Shown here: positions 3,503-28,953 of the stretch, in pieces | Position numbering within the stretch: the first letter of the stretch is position 1 | Layout of the letters: each line of letters starts with the position of its first letter | DNA from: Mesorhizobium loti | GTDB lineage: Bacteria > Pseudomonadota > Alphaproteobacteria > Rhizobiales > Rhizobiaceae | Length of the DNA: 64,000 nucleotides | Assembly: GCA_002356515.1 (NCBI GenBank) | Contig: AP017606.1 | Location: 1 to 64,000, forward strand | Reading direction: 5' to 3' | Notes under the pieces: model-generated | What the model saw: only the letters and a program-made list of their open reading frames with translations | The model's database searches: none | What the model was told of the DNA's origin: nothing | Made by a program: the position numbers and the translations under genes

Positions 3503-4192
3503 CTATGTGGATGGCCTGAATGCGTCCGCACTGGCGATTGCGTTGCCGGCTTCCTCCAAGTCCGCGACCAGGCTCTTGATGGCGGAGTCTTTGTCACCCT
3601 CCCGAACCGCATCAATTATCTCAGCATGGTGCCGATGCCCTGAGAAAGATATTGGTGTGGTCTTTAGCAGGCTGAGCAGCGGACCGTAGCGCATCCACAA
3701 AAGTTCAATGAGGTTTACGAGCTCCGGGTTGCCGCAACGCTCGTAAAGGGCAAAATGGAATCGGTGATTGAGCTGAAGATAGGTCCTTGTCCCCAGAGCG
3801 CCGCGGGCTGCTTCCACATCCATTCTGGCGTTGATTTGCGCCAAAATGTCCGCGAGGTTCGGAAGTCTCTGTGCGACTGTCATCCCAACGGCCTTGCCCT
3901 CAAGATCCGTGCGCAACGTCAAAAGGTTCCGAAGTCGCTCGACACTGGCGTCCGGGATGAACATTGAACGGCGCGGCGCTGACTCGAGCGCGCGTGCCAT
4001 TACAAGGCGGTTGAGCGCTTCACGAACCGGCATGTGGCTCGTCCCAAAAGCGTTCGCAAGTTCCTCCAATTTTAGCTTCTGGCCCGGTGAAAACTCCGCC
4101 ATCATTATCGACCGCTTCAGCTCCTCGTAGACGTGCTCGAGGTCCGAATTGGTCTGGCGCGGCTTCAGCGATGGTAAAGTGGTGGCAGGCAT
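3503..4192 (-). CDS. GntR/FCD-family transcriptional regulator of the catabolic operon
   Basis: A 229-residue FadR-type GntR regulator. The winged HTH spans about 12-80 (EHVYEELKRSIMMAEFSPGQ, then ELANAFGTSHMPVREALNRL), and an all-helical FCD ligand-binding domain follows, with the metal/ligand-site pattern including NHRFHFALYERCG and GHRHHAEIIDAV. I chose the ATG at 4192 because GGAG lies six bases upstream; an in-frame ATG at 4213 lacks a ribosome binding site. The gene is divergent from hyuA, and two identical palindromes lie in the shared promoter region, so it is most likely a ligand-released repressor of both directions. A second FCD regulator at 20380-21105 has nearly the same recognition-helix sequence, GTSHMPIRESLNRL. 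Confidence 0.9.
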   Translation of the reverse strand: MPATTLPSLKPRQTNSDLEHVYEELKRSIMMAEFSPGQKLKLEELANAFGTSHMPVREALNRLVMARALESAPRRSMFIPDASVERLRNLLTLRTDLEGKAVGMTVAQRLPNLADILAQINARMDVEAARGALGTRTYLQLNHRFHFALYERCGNPELVNLIELLWMRYGPLLSLLKTTPISFSGHRHHAEIIDAVREGDKDSAIKSLVADLEEAGNAIASADAFRPST

Positions 4193-4243
4193 TGTGACTC
4201 CAGGAGAAGACAAGGCCAGTCACACATATCGCGAACGCATTGC

Positions 4244-4258
4244 TTGATCAACGATCAA
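4244..4258. promoter_or_regulatory. operator copy 1 (GntR/FCD palindrome)
   Basis: TTGATCAACGATCAA is a perfect inverted repeat, TTGATC-AAC-GATCAA. It lies 52 bases upstream of the GntR start codon. An identical copy occurs at 4333-4347, with 89 bases between centres. Repressor binding is inferred from symmetry, duplication and position. Confidence 0.8.
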
Positions 4259-4301
4259 AGAGAGTTTTCTTGACGCTAGCGGACAATCGCGAAAATTGGG
4301 A

Positions 4302-4347
4302 TTGACAGGCGCCATATTTTGACGGCAAATCCTTGATCAACGATCAA
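4302..4347 (+). promoter_or_regulatory. hyuA promoter with operator copy 2
   Basis: A TTGACA (4302-4307) is followed after 17 bases by a weak -10 at about 4325-4330. The second palindrome TTGATCAACGATCAA occupies 4333-4347, over the predicted transcription start and just ahead of the hyuA ribosome binding site. A bound repressor there would block initiation. The -10 is poor, so the promoter call is weaker than the operator call. Confidence 0.6.
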
Positions 4348-4359
4348 AGGGGAACGTCA

Positions 4360-6369
4360 ATGTGGAAGGTTGGAGTTGATGTCGGAGGCACCTTTACCGA
4401 TCTGTTCGCGGTTAACACTTTTACGGGAGAGGAGCGAACCGGCAAGGTTCTGACAACGCCCGAAGAGCGGTCTAAGGGCGTGCTCAACGCGATCGCCAAT
4501 GCTGAGCTTAAGCCAAACGAGATTTCTCTACTCGTTCACGGAACCACGACTGCAACAAACGCACTTATCGAGCGTAGCTTCCCTGATGCCGCGATGATTA
4601 CGACCGAAGGTTTCCGGGACGTCCTGGAAATCGGCCGGATGCATCGCGAGCACCTTTATCGGCCGTATCAAACGAAGCCGGCTCCACTGATCAGAAGGCG
4701 CTATCGATACGCGATAGCCGAACGAACCAATGCAAAGGGCGAGGTCGAAGAGGACATCGACGCCGCACAGCTCAAGCCGATCATCGCCTCGATCTCTGAA
4801 GCAGGCATTGGTTCGGTAGCCGTCTGTCTCATCAATTCGTACGCCAATCCGGCAAATGAGCGGAAGGTTGCGAAGATCCTATCGGAGGCGCTCCCGAATA
4901 TTCGTGTGACGACTTCTGCTGACGTAAAGCCCGTCTTCCGGGAGCACACGCGTTTCACGCTAGCTTCAATCCGCGCAACCATTCTACCAGTAATGGCCGA
5001 TTACTTCGAGCGGCTACAGGCTCGCCTACTTGAGGGTGGGTTCTCCGGCAACCTCATGATCCTCAAGAGCAACGGCGGGATGATGGGTGTCGACCAAGCC
5101 CGGCTGCGCGTTGAGGAGCTTGTGGAATCCGGTCCTGCTGGTGGTGTCGGGTACGCCACCGAGATAGCGCGCACGGCTGGTTTCCCGAACATTATTCACA
5201 CCGACATGGGCGGAACCAGTTTCGACGCGTCCATCATCGAGGACGGCCAGGGCCTCATCACTCGGGAGTACGAGATCGAATTCGATATGCCCGTCGCGGT
5301 TCCAATGCTGGACATTCGATCGATTGGTGCCGGTGGCGGTTCTGTCGGATGGGTTGATAGTGGCGGTTCGCTCAGGGTCGGCCCCATGTCGGCAGGTTCT
5401 GTGCCAGGTCCAGCTTGCTATGGACGCGGAGGTACGAGACCTGCGATTACCGACGCCAACCTAGTCCTTGGCCGGATCAGTCCAGATCTCTCAGGAAAGT
5501 TCAAGCTGGACGTTCAAGCTGCCCGCGACGCGATTGAAACGATCGCAACCAAGCTCAATCTTACTATCGAGCAGTGTGCTGAGGGTATGATCCGGATCGC
5601 GACAGAAGCGATGGCGCAGGCCGTGAAGCTCGTGTTGGCGTCGCGTGGTCGCGATCCGCGTGACTATTGCTTTGCCAGCTTTGGTGGGGCTGGCCCCTTG
5701 CACGCTTGCGCAGTTGCGGAAGCGCTCGGCACGCCCACTGTCATTGTTCCACGGTATTCCGGCGTAGCATCCGCATACGGGGCTCTGCGTCTCGCGATCA
5801 AACACGACGAAGAGGTGTTTCACTACGCGCCGCTGACGGCAGAGGAACTCGATCGGGTTGGTGTGAAACTGCAGTCGCTTGGCGAAGCCGCCGTCGATGC
5901 GCTGGTCGCCCAGGGCGCGAAGGCCGAGGATTTAAGGGTCAGTTTCGTGATGCGGATGCGGTACGCGGGGCAGACATTCGAGGTCGACGTTGTTCAAGAT
6001 CGCGGCGCAATAGACGATCGCGATGTTCAACAGCTGGCCTCGGCATTTCACGAAGCGCACATGCGCGAATTCGGCGTGAGATCTGACGATTTTCCGGTAG
6101 AGATTGTGGCCTTGGCAGTAACTGCCGAAGCGCCTTCGCCCGCCGGCCCCCTGGAATCCGAGCAGAATTCGCAACTTGCTCCTTTACAGCAGAAAGGTCG
6201 CAAGGTGTGGTTTGGCGATTGGACCGAAGCTCTCGTCCATGATGTCGCAGGTGCTCAGTTCGTGAGCGGTCCCGCTCTCATTGAGGATCCGCATACCAGC
6301 ATTGTCATTCCTCCGGGTTGGGCCGCTCGGTTTGACTCAGCTCGAAACTGCATTCTGGAGAGGGCATGA
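4360..6369 (+). CDS. hyuA: hydantoinase/5-oxoprolinase-type subunit A (HyuA-like)
   Basis: A 669-residue HyuA-family protein. It opens with VGVDVGGTFTDLFAV, the phosphate-binding loop of the ASKHA-like fold, and contains LVHGTTTATNALIER, NIIHTDMGGTSFDAS and the late FASFGGAGPLHACAVAEAL typical of N-methylhydantoinase A / 5-oxoprolinase / acetone carboxylase beta-type subunits. The ATG at 4360 follows AAAGGGGAA; an in-frame TTG at 4333 lies inside the operator and is rejected. The partner subunit HyuB starts in a four-base overlap. The family couples ATP hydrolysis to opening of cyclic amides (hydantoins, 5-oxoproline) or to carboxylation of ketones. The substrate cannot be read from the sequence, but the operon context suggests a lactam- or imide-type compound leading to a beta-hydroxy acid. 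Confidence 0.9.
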   Translation: MWKVGVDVGGTFTDLFAVNTFTGEERTGKVLTTPEERSKGVLNAIANAELKPNEISLLVHGTTTATNALIERSFPDAAMITTEGFRDVLEIGRMHREHLYRPYQTKPAPLIRRRYRYAIAERTNAKGEVEEDIDAAQLKPIIASISEAGIGSVAVCLINSYANPANERKVAKILSEALPNIRVTTSADVKPVFREHTRFTLASIRATILPVMADYFERLQARLLEGGFSGNLMILKSNGGMMGVDQARLRVEELVESGPAGGVGYATEIARTAGFPNIIHTDMGGTSFDASIIEDGQGLITREYEIEFDMPVAVPMLDIRSIGAGGGSVGWVDSGGSLRVGPMSAGSVPGPACYGRGGTRPAITDANLVLGRISPDLSGKFKLDVQAARDAIETIATKLNLTIEQCAEGMIRIATEAMAQAVKLVLASRGRDPRDYCFASFGGAGPLHACAVAEALGTPTVIVPRYSGVASAYGALRLAIKHDEEVFHYAPLTAEELDRVGVKLQSLGEAAVDALVAQGAKAEDLRVSFVMRMRYAGQTFEVDVVQDRGAIDDRDVQQLASAFHEAHMREFGVRSDDFPVEIVALAVTAEAPSPAGPLESEQNSQLAPLQQKGRKVWFGDWTEALVHDVAGAQFVSGPALIEDPHTSIVIPPGWAARFDSARNCILERA

Positions 6370-8123
6370 TGGCTAATCCAATCGATCCTATCACGTTTGA
6401 AGTTCTGCGTAACACGTTTGAACACGTCTGCCGCCGGATGACGGTTATCCTCCAAAAGTCCTCCTTCTCGCCGATCCTGTCTGAGAACCTGGACTTCTCC
6501 AACGCTATCTACGATCCGACGTTGCGCTTGGTTGGACAGACGGCCAACTGCCCGGTGCACCTCGCCGCGATGCATTTCAGCGTCCAGGCGGTGGCCAGGA
6601 AGTTCGGCATCGAGACTTTGCGTCCTGGGGACGTGGTGATCCTCAACGACCCGTACGACGGCGGTACGCACATCAACGACGTGACGCTGACGATGCCTGT
6701 CTTCTACGAAAATGAGCTGATCGGCTTCGCGGTAAGTCGTGGCCACTGGATGGATCTTGGCGGAGGTGGCCCGGGCGGGCAGGGCTTTGGTACGCATGTC
6801 GCAGGCGAAGGTCTTCGACTGCCTCCTTTGAAATTGTATCGCGACTACAAAGTCGATCAGGATCTGCTCGAAATCCTCCTTCGGAACACGCGAACGCCTC
6901 ATTACGTCAAAGGCGACCTTCAGGCTCACATGGGCGCGCTACTTGCCGCTGAGGACGAGCTCCGCGCGACAGCTCGTAAGTACGGTCGGGCAACTCTTAT
7001 CCAAGGAATGGGTGACATGATCGGTTACACCGAGCGCATCGTCCGGGCGGAGATCGAAAAAATTCCGGACGGCGTGTACGAAGGAGCCGATTACGCCGAT
7101 TCCGATGGCATCACCGACCAGAAGGTTTGGGTTCGCGTCAAGCTCACGGTTTCAGGGTCCAACCTACATGTCGATTTCGCCGGCAGCGACCCACAGGTCG
7201 CGGGCGCGATCAACTCACCATTCGCGAACACAACTGCAGCGGTGTACACCGCTTTACAGTTCTTCCTCGCGCCCGATGCTCCGCCCAATGCTGGGATGTT
7301 CGCTCCGATTTCGTTGAGCCTGCCGGACGATTGTTGGCTGAATGCTCGTTGGCCTGCTCCGGTAGTCGGTTGCACGACCGTCACATCGGGCAAAGTGCAG
7401 AGCGCCATCTGGCAAGCTGTCGCCAAAGCAATCCCGAGTCTGGCGATCGCTCCAACCTGCGCAGACGCAAATTGGTTCGTCGCCGCTGTCCGTGGCCCAG
7501 GAAACCGTATCGATGTGTTCTCAGACATCCCTGCCGGCGGCTGGGGCGGCACGCCATACAACGACGGGCTAAACGTCACGCTGGATCCTCTGGGCAACTG
7601 CACAAATATGCCGGCGGAGGCAGCCGAGCTCCTCTACCCGGTGAGAGTCGAGGCATTCGACTTGCGCCAGGATTCTGGCGGTCCGGGAGAGAACCGCGGA
7701 GGGTTGGGCGCAAGGTTCAAGTTCCGGTTCCTGAACGGTGGCGAACTCTCGATCGAAACATCCCGTACCATTGAGGGTAGCCCGGGCGTCAACGGCGGCG
7801 GTATAAGCCCCGTCCAGCTTCTCGTTCAAGAATACCAAGACGGTCGCCGGGAGATTATCGGCGGACCTCGTCCCGACGGAACGTGGCGCAGCCCGCTTCT
7901 GTCCTCGCACAAATTTGGACCCGGTGAGGCCTTCGAGTTTCTGTCGACCGGAGGTGGTGGCTGGGGCGTGGCTCAATCCCGGGACCCAGAGAGAGTTCGG
8001 CAGGACGTGATCGACGGCTATGTCTCGCTCCAAGCTGCCCGTCGCGATTATGGGGTCGCGCTGGATCCCAACACGTTCGAACTCCTTCACGATCAAACCT
8101 CAAAGTTGAGAAACCTGGCATGA
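6366..8123 (+). CDS. hyuB: hydantoinase/5-oxoprolinase-type subunit B (HyuB-like)
   Basis: A 585-residue HyuB-family protein (hydantoinase B / 5-oxoprolinase second half). Family features include PIDPITFEVLRNTFEHVCRR at the N-terminus, DVVILNDPYDGGTHINDVTL with its conserved Asp/His cluster, GRAGHW-like SRGHWMDLGG, and the C-terminal GGPGENRGGLG and SGGGG-like glycine-rich segments. It overlaps hyuA as ATGA, so translation is probably coupled and the two subunits form one complex. An ATG three bases later is an equivalent start. The complex should act in the cytosol on the solute delivered by the ABC importer encoded downstream. Confidence 0.9.
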   Translation: MMANPIDPITFEVLRNTFEHVCRRMTVILQKSSFSPILSENLDFSNAIYDPTLRLVGQTANCPVHLAAMHFSVQAVARKFGIETLRPGDVVILNDPYDGGTHINDVTLTMPVFYENELIGFAVSRGHWMDLGGGGPGGQGFGTHVAGEGLRLPPLKLYRDYKVDQDLLEILLRNTRTPHYVKGDLQAHMGALLAAEDELRATARKYGRATLIQGMGDMIGYTERIVRAEIEKIPDGVYEGADYADSDGITDQKVWVRVKLTVSGSNLHVDFAGSDPQVAGAINSPFANTTAAVYTALQFFLAPDAPPNAGMFAPISLSLPDDCWLNARWPAPVVGCTTVTSGKVQSAIWQAVAKAIPSLAIAPTCADANWFVAAVRGPGNRIDVFSDIPAGGWGGTPYNDGLNVTLDPLGNCTNMPAEAAELLYPVRVEAFDLRQDSGGPGENRGGLGARFKFRFLNGGELSIETSRTIEGSPGVNGGGISPVQLLVQEYQDGRREIIGGPRPDGTWRSPLLSSHKFGPGEAFEFLSTGGGGWGVAQSRDPERVRQDVIDGYVSLQAARRDYGVALDPNTFELLHDQTSKLRNLA

Positions 8124-9010
8124 ACAACGAGATATTTATCACTTGCGCCGTAACCGGCGCTGGGCCGGGGCCGCGAAAGAACTCGAACGTTCCGGTCACT
8201 CCTGCGCAGATCGCCGAAGACGTGCTTGCCGTTGCTGAGGCTGGCGCCGCTATCGCCCACGTCCATGTTCGCGATCCGGAAACGACCGAGGGATCTCGCG
8301 ATGTGAAGCTGTACGCGGAAGTACTCGAGCGCGTTCGCGACAGAAACAACGATATCATCATGAACATGACCGCAGGTATGGGAGGCGATTTGGTCCTCGG
8401 CTCCAATGACCCGACCCAGCCGCAACCTGGCACCGATCTGGTCAACCAGAAGACGCGCCTCCTTCATGTCGAAGCGTTGCGGCCAGATATCTGCACGCTT
8501 GATTGCGGTTCCTACAATGTAGGCGAGGGAAACCTCGTCTACATCTCCACGCCGGAACAAATCCGCGAAGGTGCGCAGACCATTCGCGGGCTCGGCGTGA
8601 AGCCTGAACTTGAGGTCTTTGACCTTGGCCATCTAGACTTTGTGATGAAACTGATCGGGGAAGGCGCATTTGCCGGTCCGGCAATGATTCAGTTCTGCCT
8701 TGGGGTGAACTACGGAGCTCCTCCCACCACCACAGCGATGAAAGCGATGGCGGACGCGGTTCGAGGGTCGGACGTCGTCTGGTCGGCGTTCGGCGTCGGT
8801 CGGATGCAAATGCCGATGGTAGCGCAGGCAGTTCTTCTCGGCGGTAATGTACGGGTTGGTCTCGAAGACAATATCTGGCTCGACCGCGGCGTACCAGCGA
8901 CCAATGTTTCGCTGGTGAAGCGGGCGCGTGAGATCGTGGAGCGGATGGGCGTGCGGATTATGTCCTCATCCGCAACGCGTGATCGCCTCGGCCTAGGTGC
9001 AGCCGCATGA
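8120..9010 (+). CDS. beta-keto acid cleavage enzyme (BKACE, DUF849 family)
   Basis: A 296-residue BKACE protein, homologous to 3-keto-5-aminohexanoate cleavage enzyme (Kce) and dehydrocarnitine cleavage enzyme. The signature ITCAVTGAG opens the TIM barrel, AHVHVRDP (His47, His49) supplies zinc ligands and NVRVGLEDN (Glu249) the third conserved site. Characterised members condense a beta-keto acid with acetyl-CoA to give acetoacetate and a new CoA ester. It overlaps hyuB by four bases and the following dehydrogenase gene by four, and a thioesterase closes the operon. That trio is the same as in carnitine degradation (dehydrogenase, BKACE, thioesterase). The particular keto acid is unknown. Confidence 0.92.
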   Translation: MNNEIFITCAVTGAGPGPRKNSNVPVTPAQIAEDVLAVAEAGAAIAHVHVRDPETTEGSRDVKLYAEVLERVRDRNNDIIMNMTAGMGGDLVLGSNDPTQPQPGTDLVNQKTRLLHVEALRPDICTLDCGSYNVGEGNLVYISTPEQIREGAQTIRGLGVKPELEVFDLGHLDFVMKLIGEGAFAGPAMIQFCLGVNYGAPPTTTAMKAMADAVRGSDVVWSAFGVGRMQMPMVAQAVLLGGNVRVGLEDNIWLDRGVPATNVSLVKRAREIVERMGVRIMSSSATRDRLGLGAAA

Positions 9011-9783
9011 CTGCCCTTAAAGACAAGCGCGCGATCATAACAGCCGGCGCGAGTGGAATCGGTCGCGTAGTTACCAAGAAAATGATTGCAGCCGGCGCCA
9101 AGGTCGCCGTCTGCGACGTCGACGAAGATGCCGTCAACTCCTTCGCCGCCGAAAACCCTGACTCGACCGCGGTTGTATGCGATGTGGCCGATCCGACGAA
9201 GGTTCCAGAAGCAATCGAGACGATGTTGAAAGGCCTCGGCGGGGGTACTGACATCCTTTTCAACAACGCTGGAATCGCGGGACCGACGGCTGCTATCGAG
9301 GATATCTCTCCAGAAGAATGGGGCAGGACCCTCGATGTAAATCTTACGGCCCAGTACCTGTTCATTCGAGGCGTTATGGCTGGGATGAAGGCTCAGCGTT
9401 CAGGGGTCATACTGAACATGTCTTCGGCAGCTGGTCGTCTCGGCATGCCGATGCGCACGCCATACGCAGCGGCAAAATGGGCCGTGATCGGATTGACGCA
9501 ATCCCTGGCGATGGAAGTCGGCAAGTTCGGAATACGGGTCAACGCCATTCTTCCAGGGTCTGTCCGCGGGCCACGGATGGAGCGCGTAATGGCGGCCAGA
9601 GCCAAGTTGACCGGACGGCCACTCGCGGAAATCGAGGCTGAAGAAGTGGCAACGATGTCTTTGGGACGAATGATCGAGCCAGAGGAAATCGCTGACCTAG
9701 CGATCTTCGTCTCGTCTGATGCCGGTCGATCGATCTCCGGGCAATCGCTGGGGGTGTGCGGCAACACCGAAATACTCAGATAG
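9007..9783 (+). CDS. short-chain dehydrogenase/reductase (probable beta-hydroxy acid dehydrogenase)
   Basis: A 258-residue classical SDR. The nucleotide motif ITAGASGIG (11-19) has Ala where TGxxxGIG usually has a leading Thr-Gly pair shifted by one; NNAGIAG, MSSAAG (Ser139/140) and YAAAK (Tyr153, Lys157) give the catalytic tetrad. An Asp at the end of strand 2 (VAVCDVDED) favours NAD(H). Sitting next to the BKACE gene, it most plausibly oxidises a beta-hydroxy acid to the beta-keto acid that BKACE cleaves, as L-carnitine dehydrogenase does in the carnitine route, although that enzyme belongs to another family. Overlap with the upstream gene is ATGA. The substrate is inferred only. Confidence 0.9.
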   Translation: MTALKDKRAIITAGASGIGRVVTKKMIAAGAKVAVCDVDEDAVNSFAAENPDSTAVVCDVADPTKVPEAIETMLKGLGGGTDILFNNAGIAGPTAAIEDISPEEWGRTLDVNLTAQYLFIRGVMAGMKAQRSGVILNMSSAAGRLGMPMRTPYAAAKWAVIGLTQSLAMEVGKFGIRVNAILPGSVRGPRMERVMAARAKLTGRPLAEIEAEEVATMSLGRMIEPEEIADLAIFVSSDAGRSISGQSLGVCGNTEILR

Positions 9784-9818
9784 CTCATCTTGGGGAATCC
9801 AAAACTAGGGAGAATAAA

Positions 9819-11081
9819 ATGAACTTGATGACAAACGTAATTGTCGCTGGCGTTTTCGCTTGCGGGCTCACGGGATACGCGACTGCACAAGAAACCATTA
9901 ATGTCGGCGTCGTCCAGCCTCAGGCCGGTGAATGCGCTCAATGGGGCGTGCCGATCACCCGCGGAGTGCAGATCTGGGCCGAAGAATTCAACGCAAATGG
10001 CGGCATTGCTGACTCAACAGGTAAGAAACACCAGATCAAGGTAACTGCGTACGACAATAACTGCTACACGGCCGGCGATGAACTGACTGCCTTCCGGCGC
10101 GCAATCCTGGACGATAAGGTCAACTTCATTCTGCAAACCTTTACGCCGGCTTCTCGGCAAGCCGTTGCGCAGATCGCGACGGAAAACAAGGTTCTGACGA
10201 CAAGTTACGGTGCTGGCTATCTCAATGCCAAGTATCCCTTCCTGATCGGGACGGTGACTGGTTCGCCGGCCTCGTATATGTTGTTGGTCAGCCACCTTCT
10301 TGAGACCCGGCCCGACATCAAGAAAGTCGCCATCGTGACGGCGGATCATTCGTTCGGCCAGGCTGCGCTAGCCTATTACAAGGCAGGTATCACTCCCTAC
10401 GCGAAGCGCGTCGAGATCGTCTACTCCCAGCCATATGATCCAGCAGCGACATCCGACATGCTCGGGCTTGCAACGCCGATTTTTGCGTCCAGCCCAGACC
10501 TGATCGTCGAACTCGGGTTCACGCCGGGACAGCAGGCGCTGTTTATCGAAGCGATGGAGCAGCTTGGATACAAGGGGCTCTATGGTAGCGAGGGTTGGAC
10601 AATGGGCTTGGTTACCGAGCGTGTTCCTGCCGCCCAGCTCGCGGGTCGCGTTTTCAGCGCATACGTGGTTGACGCCTCTGAGCCGAGCTTCAGCCCTCGC
10701 GTCTCGAATTTCTACAAGTCGTATGTCGAAAGGTACGGTCAGAAAGAATGGTCAGTGCTGGCCTCTGTGGCCTACGCGGCAATGACTACGGTGGAAGCGG
10801 GCATTCAGAAGGCATCTGCTCCCACTGGAGATGCAGTCAGACAGGCGCTGTTCGCGACCGATACGGTTGACCAGCCTCTGTTCGGCAAGTCTCGCTGGGG
10901 TGGTGCAGAAATGTATGGTGCCAACAATTGGCTGCTCACGCCGCTACCAGTCTACGTGACTGACGACAAAGGTGGCGTGAAAGTGGATGCGGTCGTCGAC
11001 GTTGCCAAATGGTGGAACGCGAACAAGGACGCGGCGCTCCCGGTCCTCGCACAGGGCGGTCAGGTTCCGGCCAACAAGTAG
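9819..11081 (+). CDS. ABC transporter substrate-binding protein, branched-chain-amino-acid type
   Basis: A 420-residue periplasmic binding protein of the Leu/Ile/Val (type I fold) class. The ATG at 9819 follows AGGGAG and gives a clean signal peptide (NVIVAGVFACGLTGYATA, cleaved before QETINVG). The mature protein shows GVPITRGVQIWAEEFNANGG, the usual strand and helix pattern at the start of this fold, and later KVAIVTADHSFGQAALAYYK. It precedes two permease and two ATPase genes in the same orientation, so it delivers the operon's substrate. Binding proteins of this class recognise amino acids, but also amides, urea and aromatic acids, so the ligand stays open. Confidence 0.92.
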   Translation: MNLMTNVIVAGVFACGLTGYATAQETINVGVVQPQAGECAQWGVPITRGVQIWAEEFNANGGIADSTGKKHQIKVTAYDNNCYTAGDELTAFRRAILDDKVNFILQTFTPASRQAVAQIATENKVLTTSYGAGYLNAKYPFLIGTVTGSPASYMLLVSHLLETRPDIKKVAIVTADHSFGQAALAYYKAGITPYAKRVEIVYSQPYDPAATSDMLGLATPIFASSPDLIVELGFTPGQQALFIEAMEQLGYKGLYGSEGWTMGLVTERVPAAQLAGRVFSAYVVDASEPSFSPRVSNFYKSYVERYGQKEWSVLASVAYAAMTTVEAGIQKASAPTGDAVRQALFATDTVDQPLFGKSRWGGAEMYGANNWLLTPLPVYVTDDKGGVKVDAVVDVAKWWNANKDAALPVLAQGGQVPANK

Positions 11082-11148
11082 AAACCCCAGCAAGCGAAGT
11101 GGTCGCGCTGATGCGACCACTTCTACGCCGCAGAGGTGGTCGACGCTC

Positions 11149-14392: not shown

Positions 14393-14421
14393 CACCATTG
14401 CTGGCGGTCGTCCAAAACCGC

Positions 14422-15540: not shown

Positions 15541-15544
15541 CGGG

Positions 15545-15690: not shown

Positions 15691-15709
15691 GGACAACGAT
15701 GGAGTGATG

Positions 15710-21584: not shown

Positions 21585-23522
21585 ATGCAGAGTTTAACAA
21601 GGGCCGCAGGTCCGTCAGATCGGACCATTGCAGCTTCCGTGCTTTGGTATGCATCCGAATTTCCTCGTCGTCCTGCTGTCATTTTCGGAACAGAGGCGAT
21701 CAACTACATGGATTTGTGGCTGCGAGCCTGTGAGATAGCTCGTGCCCTAAAAACTGGACGTGAAGCGGGTTTGGACCGCGTGGCCCTTTATTTTCCCATC
21801 GGTATTGACCGGATCGCGGCGATCCTCTGCTGTCAAATCCTAGGTGTTTCCTACGTTCCTGTGGAACCAAATCTTCCAGCGAGTCGCATTCGCGAGATGC
21901 TTGCGCAAGCGGATCCGAGCGTGCTCCTCAGTTCATCGGCCATCTGTTCGGCGATCCTCAAGGAGGTCTCGTCGTGCCCGACAGTGATGGTCGAGGAAGT
22001 TGGAGTGGGCGCCGCTGATCGTGGATCGTTGAGCCGAGATTTGGCGCTGCCGCCGAAGTCCGGTGGCTACGTTATCTTTACCTCGGGTTCGACTGGCAAG
22101 CCGAAGGCAGTCAACATGGGAGGAGCAGCACTTCAAAACCTCGTGGACTGGCAGATCGAACTTTCGACGCTGTCAGACAATGCGGCAACGGCTCAGTTCG
22201 CCCCCATTTCGTTCGATGTATCGTTTCAGGAGATATTCTCCACGCTCTGTTCTGGTGGGAGTATCGTCCTCCTAGCGAATGAACAGCGGATCGACCCCGA
22301 TTTGCTTTCGGACGAGATACTGCGTGCCCGGGTGGAGCGATTGTTTCTGCCATTTATCGCTCTCCAACAATTGGCGTCGAATTGTGTGGAGCGCAATTTG
22401 TTTCCCGACAGTCTACGGGAGATCCACACCGCCGGCGAACAACTCGTGGTCTCTTCCGCTTTGCGCGAGTTTTTCATCAAGCTCCCCCAGTGTCGGCTCT
22501 TCAATCAATATGGTCCCTCCGAGACACACGTCGTCACCTGTCACGAGCTTGATAGCAATCCAGCGGAATGGCCTAGGTTACCGCCTATCGGTCGGCCTCT
22601 ACCGAATGTCGTACTGTTCATTTTAGGTGAAGATGGCCGACCGGTGAGGTTAGGAGAGGTGGGAGAGTTGTATATTGGTGGCGTCTGCCTCGCGCAGGGG
22701 TATTTCCAGGACAAGGAGCGAACAGACGAACGGTTCATGACTATAGATATTAACGGCACGCTAACGAGATTGTATCGGACCGGCGACTTTGCGACATCAG
22801 ATGAAAGTGGTTGTTTTTTCTTCTGTGGTCGCCGAGACCACCAAATCAAGATCGATGGCTACAGGGTTGAACTTGGGGAAATTGAGAGCGTTATAGCGGA
22901 TCACCCAGACGTAGCCGAAGTCGCCGTGGTTTTCGATCGTGATGCAAATGGAACGGGACGACTGATCGCCTGCCTGACGAGCAAAGATGGGGCGCCAACC
23001 GACTGTCTCGAGACAGTAGTTCGCGCCCATGTCCGTGAGAAGCTCCCTGGCTACATGGCGCCAGACCGTGTCCAGATCATCGGCGCGATGCCTAAAACTG
23101 CGAGTGGCAAGGTCGATCGGAAATCAATCGCGGAAAGGCTGTGTGCCGAAAAGGTCAACCCCTCGGCACCGCCTGTCGAGAAGCCAGCCTGTGCCACTAC
23201 GAGCGGATCGGTGAAGAACAGCGATCTGTGCGGCGCGATCACCTCTTACTGGCGGGAGCTCCTGGACCACCCCTTGCTCTCGGACTCGGATAATGTGTTC
23301 GATTTTGGCGCGCGTTCGATCATGGTCCCGGAGCTTCAACGCCGCCTTCGCCGTCAATTCGGGATTAGCATGCCCGCGATCTTGGTCTTCCGGCATCCTT
23401 CGCCGAGGGAGCTTGCAGACTTTTTATCGCGAAGATCGGTGAAGGGCGATGCATTGAACACTACGTTGGCTGGTCTCGCAAACCGGCGTGTGTCGACCAA
23501 AAGACGCGCTTCTCCGCGCTGA
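21585..23522 (+). CDS. nonribosomal peptide synthetase, A-PCP loading protein
   Basis: A 645-residue NRPS protein with an adenylation domain (about 1-515) and one carrier domain (about 548-615). It has no condensation domain. Core motifs: A3 YVIFTSGSTGKPKAV, A4 FDVSF, A5 NQYGPSET, A7 YRTGDF, A8 GRRDHQIKIDGYRVELGEIE, A10 PKTASGKVDR with Lys509. The carrier motif is DFGARSI with Ser578. Pocket residues readable from GrsA-type alignment start Asp-Val-Gln; I cannot name the amino acid. ATG 21585 is chosen over an in-frame TTG at 21525. The Arg-rich tail may dock to the PKS. Base composition is visibly less GC-rich than the PKS gene 88 bases downstream. It should load one amino acid for extension by the PKS. 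Confidence 0.92.
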   Translation: MQSLTRAAGPSDRTIAASVLWYASEFPRRPAVIFGTEAINYMDLWLRACEIARALKTGREAGLDRVALYFPIGIDRIAAILCCQILGVSYVPVEPNLPASRIREMLAQADPSVLLSSSAICSAILKEVSSCPTVMVEEVGVGAADRGSLSRDLALPPKSGGYVIFTSGSTGKPKAVNMGGAALQNLVDWQIELSTLSDNAATAQFAPISFDVSFQEIFSTLCSGGSIVLLANEQRIDPDLLSDEILRARVERLFLPFIALQQLASNCVERNLFPDSLREIHTAGEQLVVSSALREFFIKLPQCRLFNQYGPSETHVVTCHELDSNPAEWPRLPPIGRPLPNVVLFILGEDGRPVRLGEVGELYIGGVCLAQGYFQDKERTDERFMTIDINGTLTRLYRTGDFATSDESGCFFFCGRRDHQIKIDGYRVELGEIESVIADHPDVAEVAVVFDRDANGTGRLIACLTSKDGAPTDCLETVVRAHVREKLPGYMAPDRVQIIGAMPKTASGKVDRKSIAERLCAEKVNPSAPPVEKPACATTSGSVKNSDLCGAITSYWRELLDHPLLSDSDNVFDFGARSIMVPELQRRLRRQFGISMPAILVFRHPSPRELADFLSRRSVKGDALNTTLAGLANRRVSTKRRASPR

Positions 23523-23610: not shown

Positions 23611-26600
23611 ATGAACGGCCCCATTCACAGAGCTACCCCCATCGCGATTATTGGAATGGCCTGCCGGTTCCCCAATGCTGATACGCCCAAGGCATTCTGG
23701 GAAAACATTGTTGCCGGGCGCGAGAGCGTTCGTGAGTTGTCGGATGTTGAACTCGCCGGCGCGGGCGTCGAGCCCGAGGAGTGGGAAGCGGACGATTATA
23801 TCCGCCGCGGCGCCCCTCTTACGGGCCTCGGCTACTTCGACGCTGACTTCTTCAGCATCACGCCTCGTGAGGCGGCTCTCCTCGATCCGCAGCACCGACT
23901 ATTCCTGGAAAACATTTGGCACGCCATCGAAGATGCTGGCTACGCCGTCCGTTCGACCGAGATGACGACGGGCATCTATGCTGGCTCCGGCCCGAGCAGC
24001 TATTTCGCCAGATGCGTAGCCGGCTTGCATGATTTCCGCAAGGAAGGCATGCTCGACTCCATGTCCGGCTTCCAGGCCATGCTGGGAAACGACAAGGATT
24101 ACCTGGCGACTCGGGCGGCCCATCGCCTCAACCTCATCGGTCCCGCCATCAACGTCCAAACAGCTTGTTCAACCTCACTCGTAAGTCTCCATCTAGCCTG
24201 CAGCGGTCTTCAGAACGGCGAATGCGACCTGGCGCTGGCGGGCGGTGTCACGGCAATCGTTCCCGACGGTGCTGGCTATCGCTATCAAGAGGGCATGATC
24301 TTGTCCCGCGACGGGCACTGCCGTCCGTTCGATGCCGATGCCAGCGGCACGGTGTTTTCGAGTGGCGTCGGTGTGCTTGCGCTTCGAAGACTCGATGACG
24401 CGCTTGCCGATGGTGATACCATTCACGCTGTTATTCGCGGTTCGGCGATCAACAATGATGGAAACGACAAGATCAGCTTCTCGGCGCCGAGCATCGAGGG
24501 CCAATCGAGCGTCGTCGCAAGAGCACTGATGAACAGTTCAATCGCGCCGGAAACGATTTCCTACATGGAGACTCACGGAACGGGCACGAAACTGGGTGAT
24601 CCGATCGAGATCGAAGCCCTCCGCGAAGTCTTCGCCGGCTTTCCGGCGGACGTCGCACCGATCACCCTTGGTTCGGTGAAGGCCAATATCGGCCATACGA
24701 TCGCCGCTTCCGGCGTCGCGGGTGTTATCAAGACCGTCATGGCACTGAAGTCGCGAACCTTGCCGCCAGCGGTCAATTTCAAGACGCCCAATCCGGAAAT
24801 CGACTTCGATCGCCTTCCCTTCGCCGTGCCGGCGAGCGCTGTGCCCTGGAAGTCCGAGGGTCCGCGACGCGCGGGCATCAGTTCGTTCGGCGTGGGCGGA
24901 ACGAATGCCCATGTCATTTTGGAGGAAGCACCGGGCCAGACGAACGGTTCATCTCAGCCGGACGATACGCCGCACCCCCCCGACGTACCTCGTACGCTGA
25001 ACATTTCGGCACGCACGCCACAGGCCCTGGCCACCGTGGCCAAGAGTTTTGCCTTGCGACTCGATATGGCACAGCCCGACGAGCGCGACACCATCTGCTT
25101 CACCGCGAACACCGCCCGCCGCGCTTTTGAGTATCGGCGTTTCGCGACCGGTCGGACAACTAGGGAGTTGGCCGAGAGTCTTCGCGCAAGCGATCATGCC
25201 CGCGTCGATGTCTCCAAACACGTGGTTCCCGCCGCCCTGTTCACCGGACAGGGCGGCCAGGGCGAAGCTATGGGGCGCGGGCTCTACGAGAGCGATCCGA
25301 TCTTCCGCAAAGTCTTCGACGCCTGTGACGCGGTGGTCGCACCGCTTCGCAAACACGGATTGGGCGACATCCTTTACGGCGACGGGACGCTCGCCCATTT
25401 CGTTCACGACACCGAATATACCCAGCCCGCCCTGTTCGCGATCGAACTCGCACTCGCCCGAGTTCTCGAGGCTAGGGGCTTCGTCCCAGAGATCGTCATG
25501 GGACACAGCATTGGAGAATACGTGGCGGCCCATCTTGCCGGCGTGTTCTCACTCGAGGACGGGCTAAAGCTGATCACCAAGCGCGGCGAACTGATGGGTC
25601 GGCTTCCTCGCAATGGCGGCATGGTCGTCCTGACGGCTGATCCGGACACAGCCACTCAGATGATCCGGGACAGCGAAGTCGAGCTCGCCATCGCGGCCGA
25701 GAACGGACCAACCAGTACGGTGGTCGCGGGCGAGACTGACGCACTTGAAACGCTGATCAAGGTCGCCAAGGAAAAAGGCGTCCGCACGGCGCAGTTGAAG
25801 GTCTCGCACGCCTTTCATTCGCATCTCATGGATCCAATCCTCGAACAGTTTGAGGCGTTCGCGAGCACCCTCGATTTTTCCAAGCCCGACGGCCGACTGA
25901 TAAGCGCGAAGACTGGCAAGGTCGCCGGCGAGGAAGTCGCCGATGCGCGCTATTGGACCGACCACGTTCGCCAGCCCGTCCTGTTCCATCAGGGCATGAT
26001 GACTGCGCAGGAAATTGGGGCGAATCTCTTCCTCGAAATCGGACCGCACCCGGTCCTCACGCCGATGGCGCAGGCGGCCCTAGATGGCATTGCCTCGCAG
26101 TCGCAATTCGTCTCGAGCCTCAATCGCACCCGCAACGACGAAGAGGTTCTCGCCGAGACGGCGGGCCGCCTTTTCCTCGCCGGCCTTACGATCAATACGC
26201 TCATCGATCTGCCGGATAATGAACGCCGGCTCGTCGATCTTCCGCTCTATCCCTTCGAACGTCAGCATCACTGGATCGAAACGAGAGCGAGCGACCGGCT
26301 GGCATGGCACTGCCGCCGCGAATGGCACGCGGAAAAGCAGTCAGCGCCGCAACCGCCGAAAGACAAGGCCCTCTGGATTATCCTGGGCAATGCCCTTGGT
26401 CTCGCCGGACGCTTAGCTCAGGCGATCGAGAAGCGGGAAGGGCCGGAACAGACAGCGGTCGTTCTTTCGAATGTCGACACAGGTCTCACAGGCGGTGTGC
26501 TCGACGCGCATGTCGCGGGGATCATCGTCACCCCTGAGAGCGCGGAAGGCGCGTCAAGTGGACAGATCGGCGAGGCGGCGCACAGCCACGCCGCCACCCT

Positions 26601-28953
26601 CATGCAGTTCGTCCAGACGGTTCAGGCAGCCACTAAGAATGGCAATCTGGCGAAGGCGAAGATTTGGGTCGTCGGCCAGTCCGGCCGTGCCGTGCCGCAA
26701 ACAGACACACCAATTCCGTACGCCGCTCGTCCAGCCTCACTGGTCAGCGCCTCACTGCATGGCATGGCGATGGTGCTCGCGAGCGAACATCCCGATCTGT
26801 GGGGGGGCGACATCGATCTCGGCGCGGAGCCGAGCGACGCAGAAATCGCGGTCGCGATCGGCATTCTCGTCGGTGGCTCTGGGTCGGAGACCGCCTACGC
26901 CGTGCGCGGCGAGGAACGCTACGTCCTGCGCCTCAGCGAAAGCGGCGATGTCGGTACGGATTGCCCGGTCGATCCGCAGAAGATCTATCTCGTCACCGGC
27001 GGGCTTGGCGCTCTCGGATCGCTAATGGTCGAATGGCTGATCAATCGCGGTGCGCGCCGCCTCGTGCTTCTCAACAGGGACGTCGCGGACGGGGCCAAAC
27101 AGGAACGGCTTGAAGCCCTGCGCCGTTTAGGCGCTGAGATCGCGGCGCATGCGGTTGACATCGCCGACCAAGTCGGAGTCGAGCGAATCCTGGGCGATCT
27201 CTCGGAGGCGGGCCATCAACTCGGCGGGATCATCCACACCGCCGGCGTCGTTCAGGACGCCACGCTCGGATCGATCAAGGAGGCGAGCGAACTCGAACAT
27301 GCACTCCGGGCTAAGCTCCAGGGTACACTCATTCTCGACAATGCGAGCCGTCGCTTCTCACCCGACTTCTTCGTCTGCTTCTCCTCGGTTAGCGCGCTTC
27401 TCGGTATGAAGGGCCAGGCGGCTTACGTGGCGGCCAATGCCGCCATGAACCGCATCGTCGAGGGCCGCAACGCCGAGGGGCTGCCAGGTGTCAGCATCGA
27501 ATGGGGCCCGTGGGCGGAAACCGGTATGGCATCCGGACTCGACGAGCGTCTGCGCAAGCGCCTAACCGATTTCGGCCTGCTCGCGATCCGCAACCGGGAG
27601 GCGCTCGAGCGGCTGGAGAGCCTGTGCGCCTCAACTGGGACGCTCACCGCAGCGCCGATCCTGTGGCGACGTTTCTGCAAGAAGCAGTACGGGCAGACGC
27701 CGGCTTGGCTCACGCCTCTGTCGAATGTGCAGAAGAATCCCCAGGCGGCCAATGACGACGAGGCGACAGATCCACTTGCGCGGCTCTTCGGCCCGGTCGC
27801 ACCGAGCGATCGCAGTCAGGCGATCGAAAGCTTCCTACGCGGAGAGGTCGCCCGTGTGCTCGGCATCGCCGATCCGGACTGCCTGCCGATGGACGAAGCG
27901 CTCAACCAGATGGGATTCGACTCCTTGGCTACAATTGAGTTCCGCAACGAACTTGCCAAGACCGGCATCAAGGTCTCGCTCCAGAAGCTCGTGATGGGTG
28001 CCTCAATCGCGGAGATCGCGGCCGATACTGAGACGCAGGTGACCGCCGCTGTCGGGGGCGATGCGGATGGCGAGGCGGTACCAACCGCGCCGTTCTTGGC
28101 CGACAGTGCCCAGGGCTACGACAAGAGCGCGGTGATCATTCCGCGTCCGAAGCCCGACGCGCCGATCCGCCTGATCGGCTTTCCCTATGCCGGCGGCGGC
28201 CCGCTCGTATTCCAGCGCTGGATCGACAGGATGCCGGATCACATAGAGTTCGGCATCCTGCAGATGCCAGGCCGCAGCGCGCGCCTGGAAGAGGGCTTCT
28301 GGATGCGGATGGAGGACATGGTCGACGGCATCGTGCCGGAGATGCTGCCCTTCCTTAAGGAAAAACCCTTCGCCTTCCTCGGGTTTTGCTATGGCGGCGT
28401 CCAGGCCTTCGAGATTGCCCAGCGGGTGCGCCGCGATCACGGGCTGGAGCCGGAACACTTCTTCGTGGCCGGTGGTCGCTCGCCACAGATTTACAATAAC
28501 GACCAGTTCGCCATCGACGTCCAGCAGTTCAATCACGAGACCGGCAAATCCGAACACGAACTCGACGAGAGCGCGTTCGTCGAGATGCTGAAGGAGGTAA
28601 ATTTCGCCAACAACAAGGCGCTGTTCGAAGATCCCGAATTGCGCGCGATGATGCTTCCGATTATCCGAGCGGACTACGAGATAAACAACGCCTATCGCTA
28701 CGGTTTCCATCCTCCGCTCGACGCCCCAATCACAGCGATAGGAGGCCGCATCGACCCCTATGTTACGGGCGACCACATTATCGGCTGGAAAGAGCATACC
28801 ACGAAGCAGTTCAAGGCGCATTTTTGCGCCGGCGGTCACTTTTTCATGGAACCCCAGATCGAACTCCTTACGCGCATCGCGATCGAAGACCTCGAGCCAG
28901 TCGTCCAGCGTCTGGCCGCAGATGGCGAGCGCCAGCTGGCTGTGATGAGCTGA
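23611..28953 (+). CDS. type I polyketide synthase, KS-AT-KR-ACP-TE
   Basis: A 1780-residue single-module PKS. KS 8-437 has the triad Cys186 (TACSTSL), His322 (ETHGTGT) and His362 (NIGHT). AT about 540-860 has GHSIGEY (Ser633) and HAFH (733-736), the pattern for malonyl-CoA. A linker with KR-like structural fold leads to the KR (about 1123-1310): VTGGLGALG, Ser1259, Tyr1272, Asn1276, with VQD at the LDD position, suggesting a B-type stereochemical outcome. ACP has GFDSL (Ser1438). The TE (about 1515-1765) resembles type II-like thioesterases but the nucleophile motif is GFCYGG, with Cys1593 instead of Ser, plus Asp1715 and His1743. There is no DH or ER. Predicted product: the loaded amino acid extended by two carbons with a beta-hydroxyl, released as acid or lactam. 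Confidence 0.93.
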   Translation: MNGPIHRATPIAIIGMACRFPNADTPKAFWENIVAGRESVRELSDVELAGAGVEPEEWEADDYIRRGAPLTGLGYFDADFFSITPREAALLDPQHRLFLENIWHAIEDAGYAVRSTEMTTGIYAGSGPSSYFARCVAGLHDFRKEGMLDSMSGFQAMLGNDKDYLATRAAHRLNLIGPAINVQTACSTSLVSLHLACSGLQNGECDLALAGGVTAIVPDGAGYRYQEGMILSRDGHCRPFDADASGTVFSSGVGVLALRRLDDALADGDTIHAVIRGSAINNDGNDKISFSAPSIEGQSSVVARALMNSSIAPETISYMETHGTGTKLGDPIEIEALREVFAGFPADVAPITLGSVKANIGHTIAASGVAGVIKTVMALKSRTLPPAVNFKTPNPEIDFDRLPFAVPASAVPWKSEGPRRAGISSFGVGGTNAHVILEEAPGQTNGSSQPDDTPHPPDVPRTLNISARTPQALATVAKSFALRLDMAQPDERDTICFTANTARRAFEYRRFATGRTTRELAESLRASDHARVDVSKHVVPAALFTGQGGQGEAMGRGLYESDPIFRKVFDACDAVVAPLRKHGLGDILYGDGTLAHFVHDTEYTQPALFAIELALARVLEARGFVPEIVMGHSIGEYVAAHLAGVFSLEDGLKLITKRGELMGRLPRNGGMVVLTADPDTATQMIRDSEVELAIAAENGPTSTVVAGETDALETLIKVAKEKGVRTAQLKVSHAFHSHLMDPILEQFEAFASTLDFSKPDGRLISAKTGKVAGEEVADARYWTDHVRQPVLFHQGMMTAQEIGANLFLEIGPHPVLTPMAQAALDGIASQSQFVSSLNRTRNDEEVLAETAGRLFLAGLTINTLIDLPDNERRLVDLPLYPFERQHHWIETRASDRLAWHCRREWHAEKQSAPQPPKDKALWIILGNALGLAGRLAQAIEKREGPEQTAVVLSNVDTGLTGGVLDAHVAGIIVTPESAEGASSGQIGEAAHSHAATLMQFVQTVQAATKNGNLAKAKIWVVGQSGRAVPQTDTPIPYAARPASLVSASLHGMAMVLASEHPDLWGGDIDLGAEPSDAEIAVAIGILVGGSGSETAYAVRGEERYVLRLSESGDVGTDCPVDPQKIYLVTGGLGALGSLMVEWLINRGARRLVLLNRDVADGAKQERLEALRRLGAEIAAHAVDIADQVGVERILGDLSEAGHQLGGIIHTAGVVQDATLGSIKEASELEHALRAKLQGTLILDNASRRFSPDFFVCFSSVSALLGMKGQAAYVAANAAMNRIVEGRNAEGLPGVSIEWGPWAETGMASGLDERLRKRLTDFGLLAIRNREALERLESLCASTGTLTAAPILWRRFCKKQYGQTPAWLTPLSNVQKNPQAANDDEATDPLARLFGPVAPSDRSQAIESFLRGEVARVLGIADPDCLPMDEALNQMGFDSLATIEFRNELAKTGIKVSLQKLVMGASIAEIAADTETQVTAAVGGDADGEAVPTAPFLADSAQGYDKSAVIIPRPKPDAPIRLIGFPYAGGGPLVFQRWIDRMPDHIEFGILQMPGRSARLEEGFWMRMEDMVDGIVPEMLPFLKEKPFAFLGFCYGGVQAFEIAQRVRRDHGLEPEHFFVAGGRSPQIYNNDQFAIDVQQFNHETGKSEHELDESAFVEMLKEVNFANNKALFEDPELRAMMLPIIRADYEINNAYRYGFHPPLDAPITAIGGRIDPYVTGDHIIGWKEHTTKQFKAHFCAGGHFFMEPQIELLTRIAIEDLEPVVQRLAADGERQLAVMS

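Follow-up and report, generated by a model that had tools for sequence, protein, structure and literature searches.

An NRPS-PKS cluster and a nearby catabolic operon on plasmid DNA of Mesorhizobium loti as a possible make-and-consume module

Introduction

In the rhizopine (mos/moc) systems a rhizobium both makes and catabolizes its own compound, and the makers are described as 'typically' harbouring the catabolic genes too (PMC10107442). The locus described here is likened to these systems by description. Rhizopines are inositol derivatives whose mos genes are under NifA, whereas the synthesis genes here form an NRPS-PKS cluster with its own GntR regulator.

In carnitine catabolism carnitine 3-dehydrogenase acts first and is followed by a beta-keto acid cleavage enzyme (BKACE), and betainyl-CoA is converted to glycine betaine (PMC12482172). 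The likeness lies in oxidation of a gamma-amino-beta-hydroxy acid, cleavage by BKACE and release from a CoA ester. The carnitine clusters that we opened carry a 3-hydroxyacyl-CoA-type dehydrogenase and a GlxA-type regulator, whereas our locus has an SDR and a GntR protein and adds HyuAB and a BCAA-type importer; the thioesterases are weakly alike. A further parallel concerns N-methylpyrrolidone (NMP), whose degradation in Paracoccus is abolished by knock-out of nmpB (PMC12866759). The nmpABCDEF clusters resemble the surroundings of HyuA relatives (49-52% identity) on four plasmids that we opened, where these genes lie near FAD oxidases with varying SSADH, PucR and cupin genes. From this gene content, we take the opened loci to be probable nmp clusters. 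Our locus differs in having no oxidase or SSADH, and in it BKACE and SDR follow HyuAB.

On the biosynthetic side, the fungal swainsonine protein SwnK contains adenylation, thiolation, KS and AT domains as well as a reductase domain, and the proposal is that it combines a polyketide-type unit with the proline analogue pipecolic acid (PMC5473758). The likeness is one of domain description: SwnK is a single protein with a thioester reductase end and hydroxylases nearby, whereas our locus has a thioesterase (TE) and no tailoring genes were seen there.

Results and discussion

Layout of the locus

The region of the window, by which we mean the whole stretch of 64,000 nucleotides that was analysed, matches Mesorhizobium plasmid pMLa. 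The consumer half (3503-14898) comprises a GntR gene and then HyuA, HyuB, BKACE, SDR, ABC importer and thioesterase genes, and the producer half (17864-28953) comprises PPTase, GntR, A-PCP and KS-AT-KR-ACP-TE genes (Table 1). Pfam domains and coordinates bear out the first-pass annotation, which had placed the two gene sets 3 kb apart (14898 to 17864). The halves are separated and flanked by transposase genes. The transposase inserted inside the producer half has no match between PPTase and GntR2 of two other carriers (G009 and G089), and the 517-aa ORF antisense to it (18638-20191) is without a Pfam or NCBIfam match. No exporter was found among the producer-half ORFs scanned with Pfam. The HyuA start was taken as the ATG at 4360, the TTG at 4333 being the first letters of a predicted operator palindrome; the A-PCP ATG at 21585 is invariant across six aligned upstream regions. 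Two carriers have damaged copies: G017 has broken frames in PKS and HyuB, and in the draft genome G051 the PKS lies in pieces over two contigs and the GntR2 and HyuB frames look broken.

Table 1. Features of the two halves and of the DNA between them.
Feature	Position	Strand	Basis
GntR1, GntR-FCD regulator, divergent from consumer operon	3503..4213	-	Pfam GntR + FCD
Operator copy 1, TTGATCAACGATCAA, predicted	4244..4258		Perfect palindrome
Operator copy 2, TTGATCAACGATCAA, predicted, just 5' of hyuA ATG	4333..4347		Palindrome
HyuA, ATP-dependent lactamase large subunit	4360..6369	+	Pfam; ORF listing began 4333
HyuB, lactamase small subunit	6366..8123	+	Pfam Hydantoinase_B
BKACE, beta-keto acid cleavage enzyme family	8120..9010	+	Pfam
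SDR, presumed beta-hydroxy acid dehydrogenase	9007..9783	+	Pfam; NCBIfam
BCAA-type ABC importer: binding protein, two permeases, two ATPases	9756..14392	+	Pfam
4HBT thioesterase	14398..14898	+	Pfam
IS110-family transposase, between the halves	15619..16563	+	Pfam
PPTase for carrier domains	17864..18619	+	Pfam 4PPT_N + ACPS
IS110-family transposase, inside producer half	18773..19975	-	Annotation at matching pMLa place
GntR2, GntR-FCD, producer-side paralogue of GntR1	20314..21105	+	Pfam
A-PCP loading protein	21525..23522	+	Pfam; conserved ATG at 21585
KS-AT-KR-ACP-TE polyketide synthase	23611..28953	+	Pfam

Joint occurrence of the two halves

Matches to the PKS (at least 91% identity) and to HyuA (at least 82%) fall in the same six of 146 genomes of the genus, an overlap expected by random placement once in 12 billion if relatedness is ignored. 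All six PKS carriers have both BKACE and HyuA; beyond them, HyuA identity in the genus drops to 53% at best. A family sample of 394 genomes was searched for PKS and BKACE, with HyuA left out; each of the two (at least 60%) occurs only in the window's genome and in one genome of another genus. The clusters therefore do co-occur elsewhere, in the same six genomes of one sample and the same two of the other, and synthesis and catabolism genes travel together in both, as with rhizopines and opines. The type-1 halves show five different arrangements; in one, that of Sinorhizobium 8-89, the PKS cluster encloses hyuAB, and in another the halves lie on a contig of 5.7 Mb.

Every PKS strain examined (10 of 10) has a BKACE operon, as self-protection would predict, and the operon could accordingly be read as a means of immunity or turnover for a bioactive product (a toxin or a signal), with HyuAB the key enzyme and no nutritional role. 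In 8-89 the hyuAB genes within the PKS cluster match over nearly the whole length and the adjoining BKACE is reduced to remnants, which would suit such a role; however, the same strain has a second, type-2 operon on a separate contig, and the operon of the window has an ATP-driven importer. Type-2 operons also add CoA-transferase genes, which would serve carbon recovery. One subunit scores above the cut-off for 3-oxoacid CoA-transferase, and this fits the predicted acetoacetate. A glutamate-dehydrogenase-like gene near the type-2 operon of a Phyllobacterium plasmid, which is disrupted in BT03 and was not seen in the 8-89 stretch, likewise speaks against a purely protective function, which we regard as unlikely. 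The HyuA of BT03 is of a different lineage (33%).

The first-pass annotation had proposed a strain-private compound, and here the comparison went against it. Catabolic genes do not seem confined to producers: the Phyllobacterium plasmid carries a type-2 consumer operon with no PKS match of at least 60% listed for that plasmid, and putative HyuA/BKACE pairs, suggested by contigs of equal length, occur in environmental sets without a known producer. HyuA/BKACE genes of Roseovarius type were met as well, and a 6.86 Mb contig of M. ciceri has a HyuA of 95%. Consumer relatives of this kind make a strictly private compound improbable.

Ages of the halves

Of the five genome pairs compared, four have a dS of 0.12-0.35 in the producer half and of 1.3 to saturated in the consumer half, and this difference in age makes hitch-hiking of a single block unlikely; in the fifth pair (G009) both halves are of equal age. 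Clade tests for reassortment, in which the groups were named after the trees had been seen, gave p values of 0.0004 for the concatenated producer, 1.7e-5 for A-PCP alone and 1e-58 for HyuAB, and a non-significant 0.067 for the PKS alone; we put more weight on dS.

These ages bear on whether the halves are two independent accessory traits hitch-hiking on mobile DNA, the consumer eating some unrelated plant or environmental compound. We consider that improbable, since halves of different age recur together in the same six genomes and in five arrangements, even though transposases flank and split them, three of the four named PKS-bearing plasmids are typed conjugative (the exception is 131-2-5), joint inheritance would suit the G009 pair and some consumer relatives lack a known producer. 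Nor does a neighbouring gene follow: the adjacent DNA methyltransferase, the one informative neighbour control, occurs at 60% or more in two of the six carriers. G309, from another genus, was chosen by its BKACE and the PKS was found afterwards, the pair lying on the 5.7 Mb contig. The alanine dehydrogenase gene (46067-47182) was useless as a control because 140 of the 146 genomes have it. Taken together, the comparisons support a functional link between the two halves, which the differing ages in four of five pairs strengthen.

Predicted chemistry of the producer and consumer proteins

The A-domain pocket (D V Q F H A Q V V K) resembles those of GrsB/TycB by alignment and may be proline-like, its columns are invariant in 11 aligned sequences, the window's included, and in a search with the pocket segment only GrsB and TycB reach E<1e-10. 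It agrees with the code of the proline-activating GrsB1/TycB1 at seven of ten positions (Lys by anchor) and differs at 278, 299 and 322. The PKS motifs, read in the orthologues, are HAFH in AT, VQD without Trp in KR, and in TE a Cys as nucleophile, aligned with the Ser of RifR. Searches of open-licence papers, which are no proof of absence, gave nothing on point, judged by title and opening of the abstract, for a Mesorhizobium pMLa polyketide synthase; matches for pyrrolizidin-3-ones concern mostly synthesis, by title, with none on rhizobia among those listed.

HyuAB combines Hydant_A_N/Hydantoinase_A with Hydantoinase_B (Pfam), as expected of a two-subunit lactamase or hydantoinase. Caprolactamase was rejected as its identity: CapA, the nearest NCBIfam model to HyuA, scores 463.4 bits and CapB 296.5, both against a cut-off of 1000, so that the proteins are related without being caprolactamase. 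The nearest PDB entry for HyuA is an N-methylhydantoinase (7hk5). The SDR is above the cut-off for the FabG-like NCBIfam subfamily PRK12826.1-2. For the thioesterase, the match to PRK07531 (20.9 bits, well under the cut-off), at the thioesterase end of carnitine 3-dehydrogenase, is weak, as is that to carnitine-cluster thioesterases (BLASTP, best E 0.011).

The BKACE matches its Pfam family (PF05853) over the whole length with 308.5 bits against a cut-off of 24.8. A Tyr is reported to be present in all BKACEs, with Phe166 in the divergent BsfD (PMC12871164); the window protein has Phe at that place, in EVFDLGH, aligned with that of BsfD. The same Phe occurs in the four carnitine-cluster BKACEs that we read, and so may not set this branch apart. 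Those four are the neighbourhoods opened at 53-56% identity, a set without the Burkholderia matches (57-58%) and closer relatives (60-82%), and all were carnitine clusters, three beside an annotated carnitine dehydrogenase and one near a carnitinyl-CoA dehydratase. That HyuAB, SDR and BKACE might instead be post-PKS tailoring enzymes, both clusters making one larger product, draws on BsfD, which shares the Phe, is the second-best PDB match (9zsc/9zsn) and is described as a DUF849 enzyme whose chemistry is non-canonical and which works in a biosynthetic cluster (PMC12871164), but seems very improbable given the carnitine-cluster relatives with the same Phe, the importer in the operon and the presence of the operon, with no PKS, in the part of the Phyllobacterium plasmid that was read.

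Regulators and operator

GntR1 and GntR2 had been called paralogues from the outset, and the comparison agrees: within its own genome GntR2 is the best match of GntR1 (41%, 148.8 bits; runner-up 34%, 112.3 bits). GntR2 shares 48% identity with the regulator of the type-2 consumer operon in BT03 and 41% with GntR1. The traR gene beside that BT03 regulator was not found in the 12 other stretches searched, and a tie to opine-controlled conjugation was set aside on that ground.

Two copies of the palindrome before hyuA are also present in G009, G089, G051, G017 and G309, and 8-89 has a single copy there. The identical palindrome recurs between GntR and BKACE in the type-2 operons of BT03 and Phyllobacterium, and 8-89 has it at L166:4121; we infer that GntR1 binds it. 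A shared operator for both halves was rejected: upstream of PPTase (four genomes), GntR2 (five) and A-PCP (six) the palindrome is absent and the best sites have four or five mismatches. The exception is 8-89, where the hyuA operator sits between hyuA and A-PCP, roughly 1 kb away from the latter. A-PCP upstream regions have their own conserved block preceding TTGAC. Within the PPTase gene of G009 there is a single-mismatch site (L116:17818), without a counterpart at two or fewer mismatches around the corresponding position of the window, whose PPTase gene has two- and three-mismatch sites elsewhere.

A proposed pathway

On balance we favour, with some reserve, the reading of the window as a make-and-consume module for one compound. 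The producer genes would probably build a small proline-like compound, which the adjoining operon would probably take up and digest. The A domain would load proline or a close analogue onto the PCP, the PKS would add one malonyl unit and reduce the keto group, and the TE would free 3-hydroxy-3-(pyrrolidin-2-yl)propanoate or its gamma-lactam, a 1-hydroxypyrrolizidin-3-one. After import, HyuAB could open the lactam with ATP, the SDR oxidise the hydroxyl, BKACE with acetyl-CoA yield acetoacetate and an aminoacyl-CoA, and the thioesterase set the amino acid free, the operon being under predicted GntR1 control via TTGATCNNNGATCAA. The first-pass annotation had sketched such chemistry for a gamma-amino-beta-hydroxy acid or its hydroxypyrrolidinone lactam; the outline is consistent with the carnitine-cluster BKACE relatives, the nmp-like HyuA clusters and the GrsB/TycB-like pocket. 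Canonical BKACE chemistry is not borne out, the enzyme having Phe for Tyr.

The analysis shows the domains, the conserved palindrome, the co-occurrence and the age difference; substrates, product and nutrient or signal role are predictions. Counted against a make-and-consume module are the three of ten A-code positions that depart from GrsB/TycB, the Phe in BKACE, the lack of an exporter among the scanned ORFs, the broken G017 and G051 frames, the BT03 HyuA lineage (33%), the equal ages in G009, the lack of a producer-side operator and the consumers without a known producer.

Implications

The constant pairing of makers with digesters in the strains examined suggests a self-made nutrient or signal. 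A fuller version, which we advance tentatively and with slightly more doubt than belief, is that rhizobia carry a horizontally mobile NRPS-PKS cassette whose lactam product is dedicated to use as a nutrient-signal, and that this cassette is kept only in cells already owning one of several anciently diverged eating operons. The GntR paralogues of producer and consumer would then respond to one compound, and the whole would be the assembly-line equivalent of a rhizopine or opine system.

If the make-and-consume reading is correct, there would be a testable product and catabolic pathway, an explanation at plasmid level of why pMLa in the model strain MAFF303099 carries a PKS, and a general route to assigning orphan clusters, namely to find the operon that eats the product. 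Producer-consumer pairing would be under selection after horizontal transfer, and rhizobia would be using an NRPS-PKS to make neither an antibiotic nor a siderophore but a currency for their kin to consume or to sense.

Organization of the putative producer and consumer genes

The window (64 kb) starts contig C2 of the source genome, which comprises 8.45 Mb on four contigs. Both halves claimed in the first-pass annotation, a catabolic operon (the putative consumer) and an NRPS-PKS cluster (the putative producer), were recovered there by Pfam searches, with two IS110-family transposases placed between the halves or inside them. The PKS of the window matches those of three Mesorhizobium plasmids at 99-100%: pMLa (M. 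japonicum MAFF 303099), which has the same layout, the 131-2-5 plasmid, where extra mobile-element genes separate the halves of the same gene set, and p_2 (M. huakuii 583).

The halves are arranged in several ways across genomes (ARRANGEMENTS). In the source genome (G000) they share a strand and 3 kb separates them; G009 keeps this order, with ~4 kb in between. M. huakuii 583, where the frames of PKS and HyuB are broken, has both on a single circular plasmid at a distance of over 120 kb. In G089 they stand back to back inside 25 kb, and in G309 side by side in reversed order. The draft G051 has the parts on separate contigs, partly broken. Sinorhizobium sp. 8-89 carries hyuAB and a decayed BKACE gene between GntR2 and A-PCP, and on a separate contig a second operon type with BKACE (71%), HyuA of another lineage and CoA-transferases (type 2). 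In Rhizobium sp. BT03 the PKS (87%) and a type-2 operon share a single 128 kb plasmid. Another run of genes in the window looks like plasmid-borne genes for biotin and NAD synthesis.

Locations of the two halves and of neighbouring features
Feature	Location	Strand	Content
Consumer half	window 3503-14898		GntR1, then HyuA-HyuB-BKACE-SDR-ABC importer-thioesterase (Pfam)
Producer half	window 17864-28953		PPTase, GntR2, A-PCP, KS-AT-KR-ACP-TE (Pfam)
Biotin/NAD-like run	window 50123-56960	minus	class-III aminotransferase, AAA_26, class I/II aminotransferase, BATS radical SAM, QRPTase and FAD_binding_2 genes
Second NRPS cluster	L011:30619-42457 (M. huakuii 583 p_2)		~5 kb from PKS half; MATE exporter, 2OG-Fe dioxygenase, argininosuccinate synthase-like gene
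One-mismatch palindrome	L137:12486-12507 (BT03)		past type-2 operon
One-mismatch palindrome	L138:30843-30864		past type-2 operon
One-mismatch palindrome	L166:18938-18952 (8-89)		past type-2 operon
traR	L137:30364-31068 (BT03 plasmid)	same as type-2 consumer regulator	~440 bp behind that regulator

Co-occurrence of the two halves

Among 146 genomes of the genus, a PKS of at least 91% identity is present in six (G000, G009, M. huakuii 583 [G017], G019, G051 and G089), the next matches reaching 41% with partial coverage (E limit 1e-100, three candidates scored per genome). The same six carry HyuA at 82% or more (E limit 1e-200; next 53%) and BKACE at 89% or more. G045, which is without a close PKS, has a BKACE copy at 77% with an internal stop codon. 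Identical sets of six would be expected once in 1.2e10 under random placement, a figure that ignores relatedness; the G000 and G019 stretches are near-identical.

The family sample of 394 genomes was searched with PKS and BKACE. BKACE at 60% or more was confined to G000 and G309, which were also the only genomes with the PKS (E limit 1e-200, two candidates scored per genome); two further genomes have BKACE at 52-53%. G309, a member of another genus, was picked by its BKACE first, and its PKS was detected later on a 5.7 Mb contig. The linkage was to be abandoned if the clusters never co-occurred elsewhere; they co-occur in all six PKS carriers of the genus, and PKS and BKACE also in G309 of the family sample. 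The finding is real, and the central prediction is upheld by the genome survey.

Among the matches listed in a scan of species-representative contigs, the PKS reaches at least 91% in Sinorhizobium sp. 8-89, M. ciceri WSM4083, MAG N.Ca.IN.013.02.1 and LSJC280B00, all four of which have consumer genes; other matches are at most 48%. A-PCP protein clusters P0001 and P0002 may stand for further carriers. All ten PKS strains counted (our own, MAFF303099, 131-2-5, 583, WSM4083, N.Ca.IN, LSJC280B00, 8-89, BT03 and G309) carry a BKACE operon, and nine have HyuA at 82% or more, the exception being BT03 with HyuA of the other lineage (33%).

Different ages of the halves

Synonymous divergence from G000 was calculated for producer and consumer genes separately. 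The halves are alike in G009. Elsewhere, low producer against high consumer values point to a young mobile producer that joined, or was kept with, long-diverged consumers. Hitch-hiking of both halves as one block would make this gap in age hard to explain. Tree conflict agrees with different ages, the PKS by itself falling below significance.

Synonymous divergence from G000
Genome	Producer	Consumer
G009	0.18-0.20	0.11-0.19
G309	0.12-0.13	1.95-3.0 or saturated
G089	0.15-0.27	2.1-3.1 or saturated
8-89	0.17-0.24	1.3-1.8 (1.3 from 50 codons of the BKACE remnant)
BT03	0.27-0.35	2.9 (BKACE only)

Producer genes are constrained, less so than consumer genes (dN/dS 0.23-0.48 against 0.05-0.17, the latter from the G009 pair, the sole pair not near saturation). 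The gene for a DNA methyltransferase lies 1.3 kb past the PKS. Matches to it of 60% or more occur in G000, G019, G039 (one internal stop) and, as a fragment, G044, which include two of the six PKS carriers.

Predicted chemistry of production and consumption

The A-domain pocket segment has PDB matches below 1e-10 only to gramicidin S synthase 2 and tyrocidine synthase 2, whose first modules activate proline; the best scores of the whole A-PCP protein are with two-domain chains of linear gramicidin synthase A. The anchor-derived pocket code, D V Q F H A Q V V K, compares with D V Q S I A H V V K of GrsB/TycB, and its ten positions do not vary among 11 aligned sequences with identity down to 40%. 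Orthologues covering the motifs have HAFH in AT and VQD without Trp in KR (G051 lacks AT coverage), which we take to indicate malonyl specificity and a B-type KR, respectively. The TE has a Cys aligned with the Ser of RifR, and this Cys is present in eight of eight rows; the ring-forming TEs ObiF and SulM also have Cys nucleophiles (PMC11298585). The expected PKS product is a gamma-amino-beta-hydroxy acid or its gamma-lactam.

All four BKACE relatives of 53-56% whose surroundings were opened sit among carnitine genes. Carnitine breakdown runs via 3-dehydrocarnitine, BKACE and betainyl-CoA (PMC12482172), and 3-dehydrocarnitine, the intermediate at the BKACE stage, is a gamma-amino-beta-keto acid. 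Alignment with BsfD places Phe in the window BKACE at the site of the Tyr reported for canonical members, which counts against canonical BKACE chemistry; BsfD itself has Phe and a different chemistry (PMC12871164). Phe also occupies the site in carnitine-cluster BKACEs.

HyuA relatives (49-52%) on Phaeobacter, Paracoccus, Pseudomonas and Agrobacterium plasmids have FAD oxidases nearby and SSADH, PucR and cupin genes in varying sets; cupin and PucR genes occur in nmp-type clusters too. These neighbourhoods resemble nmpABCDEF for N-methylpyrrolidone degradation (PMC12866759). ATP coupling makes sense for the opening of lactams, a reaction that is endergonic with caprolactam (PMC8453981). CoA-transferase genes are present in the type-2 operons of BT03, 8-89 and Phyllobacterium, and subunit A of BT03 exceeds the 3-oxoacid CoA-transferase cut-off, as expected if BKACE yields acetoacetate.

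Regulatory elements

Two perfect copies of TTGATCAACGATCAA lie in the GntR1/hyuA gap. The palindrome TTGATCNNNGATCAA occurs twice at this gap in G009, G017, G089, G051 and G309; 8-89 has one copy ahead of hyuA, and the type-2 loci contain it as well. Upstream regions of the producer genes have no close copy, the best sites carrying 4 or 5 mismatches. GntR2 is 48% identical to the type-2 consumer regulator and 41% to GntR1. All three type-2 loci have a one-mismatch copy past the operon, which in BT03 precedes, by ~60 bp, the gene for the solute-binding protein of a different ABC transporter. Opines control conjugation of Ti plasmids, which the BT03 traR gene beside the type-2 regulator recalls; traR was not found in the 12 other stretches searched.

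Consumers beyond known producers

Relatives of the consumer genes also occur outside known producers, on a Phyllobacterium plasmid and in protein clusters of HyuA (60-71%) and BKACE (65-82%), some named members of which are from Roseovarius. Seven contigs are equal in size between these clusters, which suggests that the HyuA and BKACE relatives pair on one contig. One member of a 95% HyuA protein cluster is on an M. ciceri contig of 6.86 Mb. G045 holds a diverged, partly decayed consumer locus (L167) that keeps the palindrome, with GntR1 (77%), thioesterase (67%), SDR (66%) and BKACE fragments beside the interrupted copy; HyuA was not found in the 20 kb read.

As consumers extend beyond known producers, other makers of the compound may exist, and the description of it as strain-private was too strong. 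By genome evidence, the module is a candidate make-and-consume system that would work like those of rhizopines and opines, with a predicted compound at its centre.
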